Source of the DNA: Egicoccus sp. AB-alg2
GTDB lineage: Bacteria; Actinomycetota; Nitriliruptoria; Nitriliruptorales; Nitriliruptoraceae
Assembly: GCF_041821065.1 (NCBI RefSeq)
Contig: NZ_JBGUAX010000005.1
Span: 310,001-374,000 of the forward strand
Length of the DNA stretch: 64,000 nt
Reading direction: 5' to 3'
The notes under the pieces are model-generated. The model saw only the letters and a list, made by a program, of their open reading frames with translations, searched no databases and had not been told where the DNA came from. Below, piece after piece: positions 14,213-21,938 of this stretch (its first letter is position 1; every line of letters begins with the position of its first letter). The position numbers and the translations under genes are program-made.

Positions 14213-15027
14213 GACACCGTGACCAGGTCGGCCAGCTGCTGGAAGGTCTTCTCGCCGATCCCGGGGACCTCGCGCAGGTCGCCGGGCACCTGGAACGGGC
14301 CGTGCTCCTCGCGGTGCCGGACGATCGCGGCCGACTTGCTCGGACCGATGCCGGGCAGCCGCTGGAGCTCCTCCTCGCCGGCACGGTTGAGGTCGATCGG
14401 TGCGTCACCGCCCCCCGCCGCCCCCGCCGCCGCGTCGCCGCCCGATCCCGGCGCGCCGCCCGTCGGGGGCGGTGGATCCTCGCCCTCACGCGGCAGGTGG
14501 ACGTGCTCGCCATCCTCCAGCAGACGCGCGAGGTTGAGGTGGTCGAGCCGGGCGTCGTCGGTGGCACCGCCCGCTGCGGCGATCGCGTCCGCCACCCGCG
14601 CTCCGCCATCGAGGGTCACGACCCCTGGTGTCGACACGGCACCGGTGACGTGGACCACGAGGCTCGCGGGTGCCGACGTGCCGCCGGTTCCGTCGGCCCC
14701 GACCCCTGCCTCGGCCGACCCCGCGGCCGGCGGTTCCGACAGACCCGGATCGCCGGCGACGCCGCCGGCGTCCCGTGGGTGAGCGTGGTGGTGCTCGTGC
14801 GGGTCCGGTGCCGCACCGTCCACCTCGGCGCCGTCGTGGACGTCACCGATCAGGCCTGCCGCGTCGCCTGGTGTCGCGCCCGGGCGCTGCGCGGCCTGGA
14901 CCACGAACAGGCCGGTGGCCACCAGCGCGCCGAGGAGCAGCAGCGCCACACCGGCCGCTTCGGCCGGGGTCGCCTGGAGCCAGGTCAGCGCCCGTTGGCG
15001 CAGCGGGATCGGGTCGGCGTCGTCCAT
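14209..15027 (-). CDS. comEA: ComEA-like DNA-binding competence protein
   Basis: Membrane-anchored DNA receptor for transformation; 272 aa. A single TM segment (about 25-45, [17 protein letters not shown]) is followed by a long Ala/Gly/Pro/His-rich linker. An SLBB domain follows ([16 protein letters not shown] to [11 protein letters not shown]), and the C-terminal helix-hairpin-helix pair ([20 protein letters not shown] and [12 protein letters not shown]) binds DNA. The start is the ATG at 15027. Its stop overlaps the comEC GTG by 4 nt, implying translational coupling. The frame is open upstream to a TAG at 15229 and looks coding all the way (see the small upstream gene). Confidence 0.92.
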
Positions 15028-15228
15028 GGCGACAGCCTGCCGGGCCTCGGCGCCGGTCCCCGATCGCGTTCCCTGCCGCTTGTGGACGACGTCGCCGACG
15101 GCGTCGCGGGCGACGGGCGGCTGGAGCTCCTCGAGGAAGCGTTCGGCCCGTTCCGCGAGCCCGTCGACGACCGTGCCGACCGAGCGAACCAGGTCACGGC
15201 CGTCGGCCTTTCCCTGGACGATCCAGAC

Positions 15229-15417
15229 CTACCGGTCCTCCTCGGCGACCTCGGTGACGCCCGGAACCGCCGCCAGTGCCGCTTCGACGCCCTGCCGCAA
15301 CTCGTCCTCGAGCGGGTCGTCACGCCGGAACTCCGCAACCGCGACACCGACCTGCCAGGTCCAGGGCCCGGCGTCGTAGCGGATCGCCTCGACGGCACGG
15401 AGGTCGTCATCGTCCAC
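15229..15417 (-). CDS. Small conserved-looking protein ending at a suspicious TAG
   Basis: A 62-aa product starting at GTG 15417, just downstream of degV and in the same direction. It reads as genuine protein: [20 protein letters not shown], then [20 protein letters not shown], then [13 protein letters not shown]. It then meets TAG at 15231-15229. After the TAG the same frame stays coding-like ([20 protein letters not shown], then a helical [11 protein letters not shown]) and continues without a stop into comEA. This suggests a ~100-aa protein truncated by a nonsense change; GAG to TAG would restore EEDREVW. The alternative is a genuine short protein. Function unknown. Confidence 0.45.
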
Positions 15418-15425
15418 CAGCCGCT

Positions 15426-16280
15426 TCAGGCGTCGGCGCGCGGCACCACGGCGATCCCGACGGCCCCCGGACCCACGTGGGCGCCGACGATGGGGCCCAT
15501 GTGCGTCTCCAGCCGCTCGCCGACCTCCAGCCGCCCTTCGAGCCGTGACCACAGTGACGCGGCCCGCTCGGCGGCGACGGCGTGGGCGACCACCACGTCC
15601 ACCTCGCGGCCCGCAGCGTGCTCCACCGCCATCTCCGCGACCCGGTCCAACGCCCGCTGCCAGGTCCGGGTGCGTTCGCGTACCTCGACGCGCCCCTCGA
15701 CGACCTGCAGGACCGGCTTCACCCGCAGCACGCTGCCGACGGCGGCCTGCGCGCCGGTGAGGCGACCGCCGCGCTTGAGGTGGGACAGATCGTCCACCAC
15801 GAGCAGGCTCAGCGACCGGTCGCGCACGGCCTCGGCGACCTCCACCACCTCGGCAACCGTGCCGCCGGCCTCGGCGACACGGTGGGCACGAAGGGCCGCG
15901 AGACCCAGCGCGCCACCGACCAGTTGCGTGTCGACCACTTCGACGGGCAGGCCGGCCCGGCCGGCGCGGTGCCGGGCCAGGTCGACGGTGCCCGACAGCG
16001 CGGCGGACACGTGTAGGGACACGACGGCGTCGTGGCCGTCGTCCACGCAGTCGGCGTAGGCCTCCTCGAACCAGGCCGGTGCGGGCTGCGACGTGGTCGG
16101 CAGCCGCGACGTCGCGGCGAGGCGGTCGTAGAAGGCCTCGTTGGAGATGGTGACGCCGGAGATGAGCGTCTCGTCGCCGAACGTCACCGACAGCGGCACG
16201 ACCCGGATGCCGAGGCGCTCGACGAGGTCCGCCGGCAGGTCGCAGGTCGAGTCGGTCACCACCGCGACACCGCGTCCCAC
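15426..16280 (-). CDS. DegV family fatty-acid-binding protein
   Basis: DegV/FakB-type protein, 284 aa, that binds a single fatty acid; in Firmicutes FakB presents it to the kinase FakA. The diagnostic start [12 protein letters not shown] lies at residues 5-16, followed by LVPLS-like [13 protein letters not shown] and the fatty-acid site motif TSQPAP. The C-terminal domain contains [14 protein letters not shown], typical of the family. I chose GTG 16280 because the DegV fold begins there and a GAGGGAG run lies upstream; a longer frame adds only an Arg-rich stretch. It sits between the hydrolase gene and the small pre-comEA gene. No FakA homologue is in the window. Confidence 0.9.
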
Positions 16281-16339
16281 CGCCCACTCCCTCGCCGGGC
16301 GCGGCAGCCTAACGGTCCCTCGGCACCGCGCACCGCAGG

Positions 16340-17248
16340 TCACGGGGTCGAGGGCTGGGCCGTCGCGGTCGAGGGCGGCGTGCCCGGGGCGACGACGTGG
16401 TCGAGGACGAGGTCGCCGACGTCGTCGGGCCGCTCGAGGTGCAGGAAGTGGCCGACGCCGTCGAGGATCACCACGCGCGAGGCGGGGTGCGGCAGCCGTC
16501 CGATGCTGCGCTCGGCCCAGACCACGCCGATGCAGCCGTCGTCACGGCCGTGCAGCATCAGGTGCGGCTGTGGCGGCAGGGGGACCCGGTGTGAGAGGGC
16601 CCGGCCGGACAGCACCGCCGGGACGAACCCGCGGTAGTACGCGAGCACCGCCCGTGGGGCGCCGGGGCTGCGCAGGACCGCCCGCAACGGCGCCAGGTCG
16701 TCCTCGGTCGGCACGTAGTCCGGCGACCAGCGTCGCCACAACCGCACGAACCCGGCGGCGTCCGCTGAGGCCATGCGGTGCTCGGCCCCCGGCAGCAGCG
16801 CCGCGAGCGCGTAGCGCGAGCGCACCACCTGCGGGCCGTCACCGGCGGCCCCCAGCAGCACCCGCTCCGGTGGGACCGCCAGCGTCACCAGCCGGCGCCA
16901 CCGTTCGGGCGCGGCCGCCGCGGCCCGCATGCCGGCGATGGCGCCCCAGTCGTGTCCGATCAGCACCGCGTCGCGGCCGCCCCCGAGCGCCCGGTGCAGG
17001 GCGTTGACGTCGGCGGCCAGCGTGTCGGGCTCGACCCGTACCCGGTCGGGCACCCCGGTCGGTGGATAGCCCCGCGCCCACGGCGCCACCGCGTGGAAGC
17101 CCGCCTCGGCCAGTCGCGGCAGCAGGTGGCGCCAAGTCGCCGGCGTGTCCGGGAAGCCGTGCAGGCACAGCGCCAGGGGGCCGTCCGGCGGCCCCGCCTC
17201 GACGTAGGCGAACGTCAGACCGTTGGCCCGTGTGAACCGCGCTGCCAC
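16340..17248 (-). CDS. Alpha/beta hydrolase, epoxide hydrolase/dehalogenase-like
   Basis: A 302-aa alpha/beta-hydrolase. Residues ~30-45 give the oxyanion loop HGFPDTPATW. The nucleophile motif is GHDWG near residue 100, with Asp rather than Ser, as in epoxide hydrolases and haloalkane or fluoroacetate dehalogenases. The acid probably lies in HGRDDGCIG and the base is the His of GVGHFLHLE near the C-terminus. The GTG at 17248 has GGAGG about 10 nt upstream. It is on the minus strand, with degV 59 nt downstream, and divergent from the F420 oxidoreductase. Substrate cannot be told from sequence. Confidence 0.85.
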   Translation of the reverse strand: MAARFTRANGLTFAYVEAGPPDGPLALCLHGFPDTPATWRHLLPRLAEAGFHAVAPWARGYPPTGVPDRVRVEPDTLAADVNALHRALGGGRDAVLIGHDWGAIAGMRAAAAAPERWRRLVTLAVPPERVLLGAAGDGPQVVRSRYALAALLPGAEHRMASADAAGFVRLWRRWSPDYVPTEDDLAPLRAVLRSPGAPRAVLAYYRGFVPAVLSGRALSHRVPLPPQPHLMLHGRDDGCIGVVWAERSIGRLPHPASRVVILDGVGHFLHLERPDDVGDLVLDHVVAPGTPPSTATAQPSTP

Positions 17249-19132: not shown

Positions 19133-21655
19133 CTAGGCGACGACGAGGTTGACGAGCTTGCCGGGAACGACGATCACCTTGCGCACCTCGCCGGTCAGCT
19201 GGTCGGCGACGGCGTCGCGGGCGGCGGTCTCCGTCGCGGACTGGTCGGCGTCGGCCGGCACGGTGACGCGGGCGCGGACCTTGCCGTTGACCTGGACGAC
19301 GATCGTGACCTCGTCCTCGACGAGCAGCGAGGTGTCCGCCTGCGGCCACGACTGGTCGTGGACGGAGTCGCCGTGGCCGAGCCGCCGCCACAGCTCCTCG
19401 GTGATGAACGGGCAGATCGGCGCCAGCAGCTTCTGCAGCACCTCGAGCGCGTCGCGGGTCGCGGGCCCGTGCACGCCGTTGCGGGTGGCGTCGAGCACGG
19501 CGTTGGTCAGCGTCATCAGCTTGGCGATGGCGGTGTTGTACTTGCGCGCCGCGTAGTCCTCGCTGGCACCGACGATGGCCTCGGCGGTCGCCTTGCGTAG
19601 CGCGGCGACGGCGTCGTCCGGGCCGGGTTCGGCCAGCCCCGACTCCTCACGGGCGACGTGCTCCAGGGTGAGGCGCCACACGCGCGAGAGCCACTTGTGC
19701 ATGCCGCCGGGCGAGACGTCGGCCCAGTCGATGTCGTCCTCGGGCGGCGAGGCGAACAGCATCGTGCCGCGCAGCGTGTCGGCGCCGTAGGTCTCGTAGA
19801 CCTCGCCCGGCACGACGAGGTTGCCCTTCGACTTGGACATGGCCGCGCCGCCGAGGATGACCTGGCCCTGGCTGAGCAGCGCCTGGAACGGCTCGTCGGC
19901 GGCGACCAGCCCACGGTCGCGCATGGCCTTCACGACGAAGCGGGCGTAGAGCAGGTGCAGCACGGCGTGCTCGACCCCGCCGGTGTACTGGTCGATCGGC
20001 AGCCACCGGCCGGCCGGCTGCACGGGCCAGGCGAGGTCGTCGCTGCGCGGGTCGAGGTAGCGCAGGAAGTACCACGACGAGTCCACGAACGTGTCCATCG
20101 TGTCCGTGTCGCGGACCGCTTCCTCGGAGCCGCACTGCGGGCAGGTGACGTCGTGCTTCCACGTCGGGTGCAGCGCCAGTGGTGAGCCGGCCACCTGGAA
20201 GTCGAGGTCGTCGGGCAGCCGGACGGGCAGCTGGTCGTCGGGGACGGCCACCTCGCCGCAGGACGGGCAGTGGATGATCGGGATCGGTGCGCCCCAGGAG
20301 CGCTGCCGGGAGATCAGCCAGTCGCGCAGCCGGTAGTTGACGGTCGCCTTGGCGATGCCGCGCTGCTCGAGGTCGGCGGTGATGCGCTGCTTGGTCTCGC
20401 GCCAGTCCAGCCCGTCGTACGGGCCGGAGTTGACGGTCACGCCGTCGCCGGCGTACGCCTCGGTCATGTGCGCACCGTCGAGGTCGGTGCCGTCCTCGGG
20501 CGCGACGACGACACGCACCTCGAGGTCTTCCTGGCGGGCGAAGTCGAAGTCGCGCTGGTCGTGGGCGGGCACGGCCATGATCGCGCCGGTGCCGTAGTCC
20601 ATCAGCACGTAGTCGGCGGCGTAGGCGGGAACGTTCTCGCCCGTGGCCGGATTGACCATGTCGAAGTTCAGGCGCAGGCCGCGCTTCTGGCGTCCGGTGC
20701 CCTTCTCCGCGGTCCCCTCGAACGAGGCCATGCGCTCGATCTCGGACTTGCGTGAGACCTCGTCCATGAAGGCGCGGTAGTCGGGGTCGTCGCCCATGCG
20801 CGCCTCGACCAGCGGGTGCTCGGGCGAGAAGACGAAGTAGGTGGCGCCGTACAGGGTGTCGGGCCGGGTCGTGTAGACGACGACCTCCTCCCCCGGGCCG
20901 TCGGCGTCGGCGGTGCGGAAGGTGACCTCGGCGCCCTCGGAGCGACCGATCCAGTTGCGCTGCAGGGTCTTGACCCGCTCCGGCCAGTCCAGCGTCGGCA
21001 GCGCGTCCAGCAGTTCGTCCGCGTAGTCGGTGATGCGGAAGAACCACTGGGTCAGCGGCTTGCGGACGACGACGGTGCCGCAACGCTCGCAGGCACCGTC
21101 GACGACCTGCTCGTTGGCGAGCACGGTCTGGCAGCCCTCGCACCAGTTGACCGCGGCGGCACGGCGGTAGGCCAGCCCGGCGTCGAACAGCTGCAGGAAC
21201 AGCCACTGGGTCCAGCGGTAGTACTCCGCGTCGCAGGTGTGCAGCACCCGGTCCCAGTCGAACGAGTAGCCCAGACGCGCGATCGTGGCCCGCTGCTCGG
21301 CGATGTTGTCGTAGGTCCACTTGGCGGGGTCGGCGCCGCGGTTGCGGGCGGCGTTCTCCGCCGGCAGCCCGAAGGCGTCCCAGCCGATCGGGTTCAGCAC
21401 GGTGCGGCCCGTCATGCGCAGGTGCCGCACGAGCGCGTCGTGGATCGAGAAGATCTCCGCGTGCCCCATGTGCAGGTCACCGCTGGGGTACGGGAACATC
21501 GTCAGGGCGTAGAAACCTTCGCCGTCCGCGGTCGCGTCGAGCGGCAGCGAGTAGACGCGCTCGTCGTGCCAGCGCCGTGCGATCGCCGGCTCGAAGGCGA
21601 GCGGGTCGTAGCGCTCGACCTCGGTGCCGGTCGGGATCGCCTGCCCGTCGCTCAC
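19133..21655 (-). CDS. leuS: Leucyl-tRNA synthetase
   Basis: Class I synthetase that charges tRNA-Leu; 840 aa, within the bacterial range. The HIGH-type motif is [12 protein letters not shown] (~57-68) and the KMSKS motif is AAMSKSKGN (~604-612). The CP1 editing domain and paired CxxC clusters (CEGCQ, CERCG, CPSCG, CPQCG) are present, and the C-terminal part ends [11 protein letters not shown]. The GTG at 21655 has AAGGAG six nt upstream. A longer in-frame reading upstream has no synthetase character and crosses a terminator. The gene is monocistronic, minus strand, converging on the F420 oxidoreductase across the repeat stretch. Confidence 0.97.
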
Positions 21656-21694
21656 GGACGTCTCCTTGCTGTGTTCGCTGGGTCGTTGCATCCG

Positions 21695-21716
21695 GAAAAG
21701 CCCCGTGGCCGGGGCT
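21695..21716 (-). terminator. Rho-independent terminator ahead of leuS
   Basis: On the minus strand AGCCCC/GGGGCT (21716-21711 and 21704-21699) closes a short loop and is followed by TTT. It would stop transcripts coming from the YihY operon before leuS, only ~40 nt upstream of the leuS start. An attenuation role for leuS cannot be excluded. Confidence 0.5.
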
Positions 21717-21793
21717 CCCACGAGCGTAGCCGCCGGCGCCAGCCCGCCTTCCGAGACCCCGAGGTGGACCGATTCGGCGTGCGCGGGCGCCGG

Positions 21794-21823
21794 TTCGACC
21801 GGCCCGGCGACACCGTGTACATT
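21794..21823 (+). promoter_or_regulatory. Probable promoter of tRNA-Ala
   Basis: TTCGAC (21794-21799) and TACATT (21818-21823) are separated by 18 nt, 42 nt before the tRNA. The spacing matches the proposed rpsT promoter. Confidence 0.45.
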
Positions 21824-21864
21824 GCCCCGCCGCACGCCACGCAGTCGCGTGACGGGCACCGCAC

Positions 21865-21938
21865 GGGCCGGTAGCGCAGTCCGGCAGCGCACCTCCATGG
21901 CATGGAGGGGGTCGTGGGTTCAAATCCCATCCGGTCCA
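21865..21938 (+). tRNA. tRNA-Ala (anticodon GGC)
   Basis: A full cloverleaf can be drawn. The acceptor is GGGCCGG/CCGGTCC with the alanine-specific G3-U70 pair. The D stem is GCGC/GCGC with a GG-containing loop. The anticodon stem is CCTCC/GGAGG closing ATGGCAT (anticodon GGC, U33 present). The T arm is GTGGG-TTCAAAT-CCCAT and the discriminator base is A. Only CC follows in the genome, so the terminal A must be added post-transcriptionally. It is the only tRNA in the window and stands opposite to both neighbours. Confidence 0.95.

Follow-up and report, generated by a model that had tools for sequence, protein, structure and literature searches.

An interrupted small gene between degV and comEA

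In Egicoccus sp. AB-alg2, a small minus-strand reading frame lies between degV and comEA and is broken by a single TAG codon. We analysed a stretch of 64,000 nucleotides around it (the window; 73% GC). The frame opens at the GTG at 15417-15415, has its TAG at 15231-15229, and then continues without an in-frame stop, in the phase of comEA, up to the comEA ATG at 15027. These coordinates are exactly those of the first-pass annotation of this DNA. The features of the locus, by position in the window, are:

15426..16343, minus strand: degV, for a DegV/FakB-type EDD protein, with its TGA stop at 15428-15426 (Pfam DegV, 1.7e-80; TIGR00762, 3e-82; homologue alignments); left neighbour of the extra segment
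15090..15425: extra segment, ~336 bp long, that separates degV from the comEA leader
15232..15417, minus strand: putative small gene, N-terminal 62 codons, ending in EEDR (coding log-odds; homology to locus L002)
15229..15231, minus strand: in-frame TAG; the homologue has GAG (Glu) here, in EDREVW
15090..15228, minus strand: coding-like stretch after the TAG (log-odds, homologue match of the first residues, strand and helix of the predicted fold)
15028..15089, minus strand: comEA leader, common to relatives, with TCGTCCACA at 15089-15081 and GCAG at 15040-15037; right boundary of the extra segment
14209..15027, minus strand: comEA, with its ATG at 15027 (Pfam HHH_3, 3.4e-21; SLBB, 1.2e-15)

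The GTG of the small gene is 8 nt past the degV stop, and the coding-like stretch after the TAG has no stop of its own ahead of the comEA leader. The start of comEA agrees with the MDD or MDE starts of its congeners (MDETPG..., MDDIPP..., and MDDTST...). By eye, the N-terminus of ComEA resembles a membrane anchor, which is followed by the SLBB and HHH domains. As listed (minus strand, 16343-16270), the degV ORF starts about 12-24 codons before most homologues align; since those alignments begin at about residue 13-25, the GTG at 16343 probably lies upstream of the true start.

Coding signal before and after the TAG

We scored the frame with a codon log-odds model, for which 26 other ORFs of the window were the training set. 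Upstream of the TAG, the 62 codons scored +34.0 (the median for true frames is 40.8 and the 95th percentile for wrong frames is 11.7), and the 37 codons after it (15118-15228) scored +22.5 (here the true-frame median is 24.5 and the 95th percentile for wrong frames is 9.3). Scores there in the remaining two frames of the minus strand were -23 to -65. So the frame is coding-like before as well as after the TAG, beyond chance, and the earlier description of it as protein-like was correct. If the TAG is a mutation, then it would be recent, given the intact codon structure after it. Across the comEA leader, the last 30 codons scored just 8.7, which is barely over the wrong-frame 95th percentile (7.5).

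The antisense frame also scored high (28.1 before the TAG and 20.5 after), so the strand was settled separately, from third-position substitutions relative to a homologue and from a control for the predicted fold (both are described below).

A homologue with a sense codon at the site

Our first search covered 61 genomes, five of which gave a match at E ≤ 0.01. The one credible match besides the window's own was L002, in a genome from another family of the same class (G040; E = 1.6e-5 for one genome). A chance-looking match reached E = 4.3e-5 in a profile search (L052, in G335), so E-values near this level are not proof alone. The alignment to L002 scored 92, as compared to a maximum of 65 across 3,000 shuffles; with just the part before the TAG, the score was 70 and the shuffle maximum was 57.

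The L002 frame reads VNDPLYDIGPAWLPDWDLTVQLDDVVAHLQDERLDALTATLAGLPGVEEAIHEDREVWHVRGTG and diverges from the window's frame thereafter. The two frames have the same residue in 26 of 61 aligned codons, and all 12 of the nucleotide differences inside those 26 codons are at the third position. Across the alignment, mismatches at codon positions 1, 2, and 3 number 25, 21, and 35. If the same alignment is read in antisense, 18 of 61 residues are identical instead of 26.

The first-pass annotation had proposed that GAG in place of the TAG would restore EEDREVW, and that relatives might contain a family that spans the site. L002, although just one homologue, agrees with both ideas: it has GAG (Glu) opposite the TAG, within EDREVWHVRG, and the similarity continues for a few residues, with four of the eight compared residues past the site being identical (VWIVQGKA in the window and VWHVRGTG in L002). 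In other words, the homologue does not end at the same residue, and the similarity does not stop at the TAG. The homologue in G040 (L002, positions 879-1070 of that locus) is flanked by other small genes and leaves the window's frame directly after HVRGTG. Because it departs from that frame within about 8 residues past the site, L002 may be truncated or degenerate too.

We did not find a convincing third member of the family. A profile search across all 66 class genomes gave no convincing member besides the one in G040. Across 396 genomes of the phylum, a protein search gave G040 again and nothing more, and a profile search added no convincing member; a codon pattern for EDREVW is present in 11 of these 396 genomes, of which G040 alone is a relative. 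Profile searches of 139 genomes (two draws, both from one class) likewise added none that was convincing, nor did we see a convincing one in 296 genomes from another class or in 39 more genomes, both sets being searched without a positive control. Searches of genome contigs, viral contigs, phages, and plasmids gave no further homologue, and none of the genomes searched was a second strain that carries the small gene. For the small gene there was no Pfam family above the cut-off (including HMA), no match in PHROGs or PADLOC, and no match in a sequence search of the PDB.

Several weak matches were considered and set aside. A plasmid match within a GntR regulator (E = 0.1) was judged to be due to chance. 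We translated L003-L006, L039, L040, L052-L060, and L104 and, by eye, rejected them as stretches of ABC ATPases, long unrelated frames, or antisense frames. Among these, L056 at first resembled part of a family member, but it probably lies antisense to another gene.

Judging from these sequence comparisons, the small gene belongs to a rare family and is not conserved. The first-pass annotation had called it conserved, which does not fit with one other convincing copy among 66 genomes of the class and with three congeners that lack the gene.

The predicted protein

We modelled the 100-residue read-through product, with a residue at the TAG, from the single sequence (mean pLDDT 75.0, pTM 0.62). 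The predicted order of elements is strand-strand-helix-strand-strand-helix (beta-beta-alpha-beta-beta-alpha), which is ferredoxin-like. Residue 63, at the TAG, is in the turn of a beta hairpin between strands 54-61 and 64-69, so the protein would lose its last strand and helix if translation ended there. The same region read in antisense gave a pLDDT of 39.3 and a pTM of 0.23, although this control is one sequence and of different composition. Foldseek found no match in the PDB at E ≤ 0.001, and VIA-align found HMA-like and other ferredoxin-like domains with Z of 6-8, a level that its notes call common. The product of the small gene would likely have a ferredoxin-like fold, going by this model, but no function follows from the prediction.

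Origin of the extra segment

DegV is present in 28 of the 61 genomes examined. We compared the region between degV and comEA across 27 loci, leaving out L032 (which is cut by a contig end) and L035 and L036 (which are second copies of DegV). From the degV stop to TCCACA, in the comEA leader, is 342 nt in the window as compared to 15, 7, and 41 nt in the congeners L008, L009, and L010, so the extra segment sits between degV and the comEA leader. None of these three congeners has the small gene between degV and comEA. The gene was probably acquired here rather than lost from the congeners, as a gain would be simpler than a loss.

Extra DNA occurs at this same place in two other relatives, L018 and L019 (TCCACA at 425 and 426), and its content differs from that in the window. 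This stretch (from the degV stop to ~420 nt downstream) looks gene-like, apparently on the opposite strand, and by eye it resembles a small metallopeptidase (zincin). Extra genes can sit between degV and the comEA leader with the leader element still in place.

A conserved element in the comEA leader

The leader element is TCCACAG in relatives (L007-L028) and TCCACAA in the window (minus strand, within 15089-15028), and it is followed by GCAG, GCAA, or GCAC. The spacing from TCCACA to this second motif is 40 nt (consensus GGCAGNCT), with the comEA start a few nt beyond, and the spacing is identical in 15 of the 20 aligned loci. The alignment includes 20 of the 27 loci; the others are L009, L020, and five that lack the element or are too short. 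TCCACA is found downstream of degV in 21 of the 27 loci, as compared to 1.4 expected from shuffling.

Scans for terminators and sigma-70 promoters found nothing. The element may be a competence promoter or the site of a regulator, perhaps for a leaderless transcript. TNNTCCACA also resembles a high-GC DnaA box. Among the papers listed in a literature search we found no description of this element, and for a link to comEA in this group of bacteria the titles listed were unrelated. This rigidly spaced element may be more interesting than the interrupted gene.

Interpretation of the TAG

We propose, with a probability of roughly 0.68, that a rare and probably acquired small gene was disrupted by a nonsense mutation. 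The gene would originally have encoded a ferredoxin-like protein of ~100 residues, and a change of one codon to TAG would have broken it at residue 63. Translation from the GTG at 15417 would then yield just a 62-residue piece, and because this piece lacks the last strand and helix, it is most likely non-functional. The small gene is most likely a pseudogene or in the course of decay, if the predicted fold is right. That the frame has no stop beyond the TAG fits with a copy that is decaying or truncated. As there is no stop between the TAG and comEA, the ancestral C-terminus cannot be named. The gene for ComEA would be unaffected, with its promoter region and its start kept. Points against this proposal are that the residue at the site is supported by a sole homologue, which may itself be degenerate, that the frame has no stop between the TAG and comEA, and that the codon structure past the TAG is still intact. 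A gene caller would annotate comEA alone, or add a 62-residue hypothetical protein, and would miss the interrupted frame.

The first-pass annotation had offered a nonsense mutation or a sequencing error. The evidence for a coding frame that is broken by one TAG, with Glu in the homologue, bears it out to that extent, but these two alternatives cannot be separated here. We think that the TAG is real and that an error in sequencing or assembly is unlikely. If it were an error, then the true codon would be a sense codon, and the gene would be either intact or joined to the frame of comEA. A difference of one base is enough, the coding statistics are unchanged past the TAG, and the genome is a draft in 29 contigs. 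However, the sequence contains no sign of an error, and a sense codon at this site would still leave no stop before comEA, which would be odd for an intact and separate gene.

Less likely again is that a 62-residue protein genuinely ends at the TAG and that the similarity past it is fortuitous or a relic. The TAG is the frame's only stop before comEA, and the homologue diverges shortly past the site. But the homologue continues with Glu and then VW.V.G, the log-odds after the TAG are 22.5, and the predicted fold requires the part after the TAG.

It is improbable that the UAG is functionally read through or recoded, to give the full domain or a fusion of the domain to ComEA. This idea draws on the maintained codon structure and on the open frame in phase with comEA, to which the first-pass annotation had given weight. 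The open phase appears to be incidental: the short comEA leaders of the congeners L008, L009, and L010 likewise lack stops in the phase of comEA, so the run into comEA is not evidence of a fusion, and we rejected a ComEA fusion as the cause of the open frame. Nor is a stop-free run of this kind notable at 73% GC, as the in-phase stop-free stretches upstream of the chosen starts of 36 ORFs in the window range from 2 to 169 codons. Belinky et al. 2021 (PMC7918605) report conserved in-frame stops across bacteria, describe them as widespread in genes, and argue that many of these genes are not pseudogenes, so readthrough is possible in principle. On the other hand, we found no match to PylS in the genome (which is 98.46% complete) and no CUA anticodon among its 44 tRNA matches (from ARAGORN). 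Ordinary genes also end in TAG: it terminates 6 of the 36 ORFs (which were chosen mechanically, and some are doubtful), including a leuS-like gene at 19133-21898 that we named by eye. These results go against recoding, which the first-pass annotation had suggested. The preserved leader element and start of comEA downstream argue against readthrough as well.

One specific version is more doubtful still: low-rate and perhaps regulated readthrough of the UAG at 15231-15229, which would place a ferredoxin-like domain at the N-terminus of some ComEA, on the cytoplasmic side of the membrane anchor, beside normal ComEA made from its own start. If true, this would be an unusual way to lengthen a DNA-uptake protein, but nothing in the evidence leads us to expect it.

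The least probable explanation is that there is no gene, with a high-GC stretch being open by chance or with the plus strand being the coding strand: the high antisense scores fit with it, but the third-position differences (12/12 in conserved minus-frame codons), the lower antisense identity (18/61 vs. 26/61), and the poor antisense fold (pLDDT 39) all argue against it.

Comparison with known systems

The predicted beta-alpha-beta-beta-alpha arrangement of the small gene's product would, if right, be like that of HMA and other ferredoxin-like proteins. With the single-sequence model, VIA-align gave HMA domains a middling Z of 6-7 across about 60-65 residues, and the top row was 2phc (Z = 8.1). 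The small gene's score against CopZ from NCBIfam, 18.1 bits as compared to a cut-off of 85, is far below the level of that family. In HMA metallochaperones, CxxC is the metal site motif. In contrast to these CopZ-like proteins, the 100-residue frame of the small gene has no cysteine at all and hence no CxxC metal site.

The locus is also like the genes with in-frame stops that are described in Belinky et al. 2021 (PMC7918605), in that there is a single TAG with coding statistics on both sides. However, the focus there is on stops that are common to orthologues from at least two species, whereas the stop here was seen in one genome, opposite a sense codon in the sole homologue.
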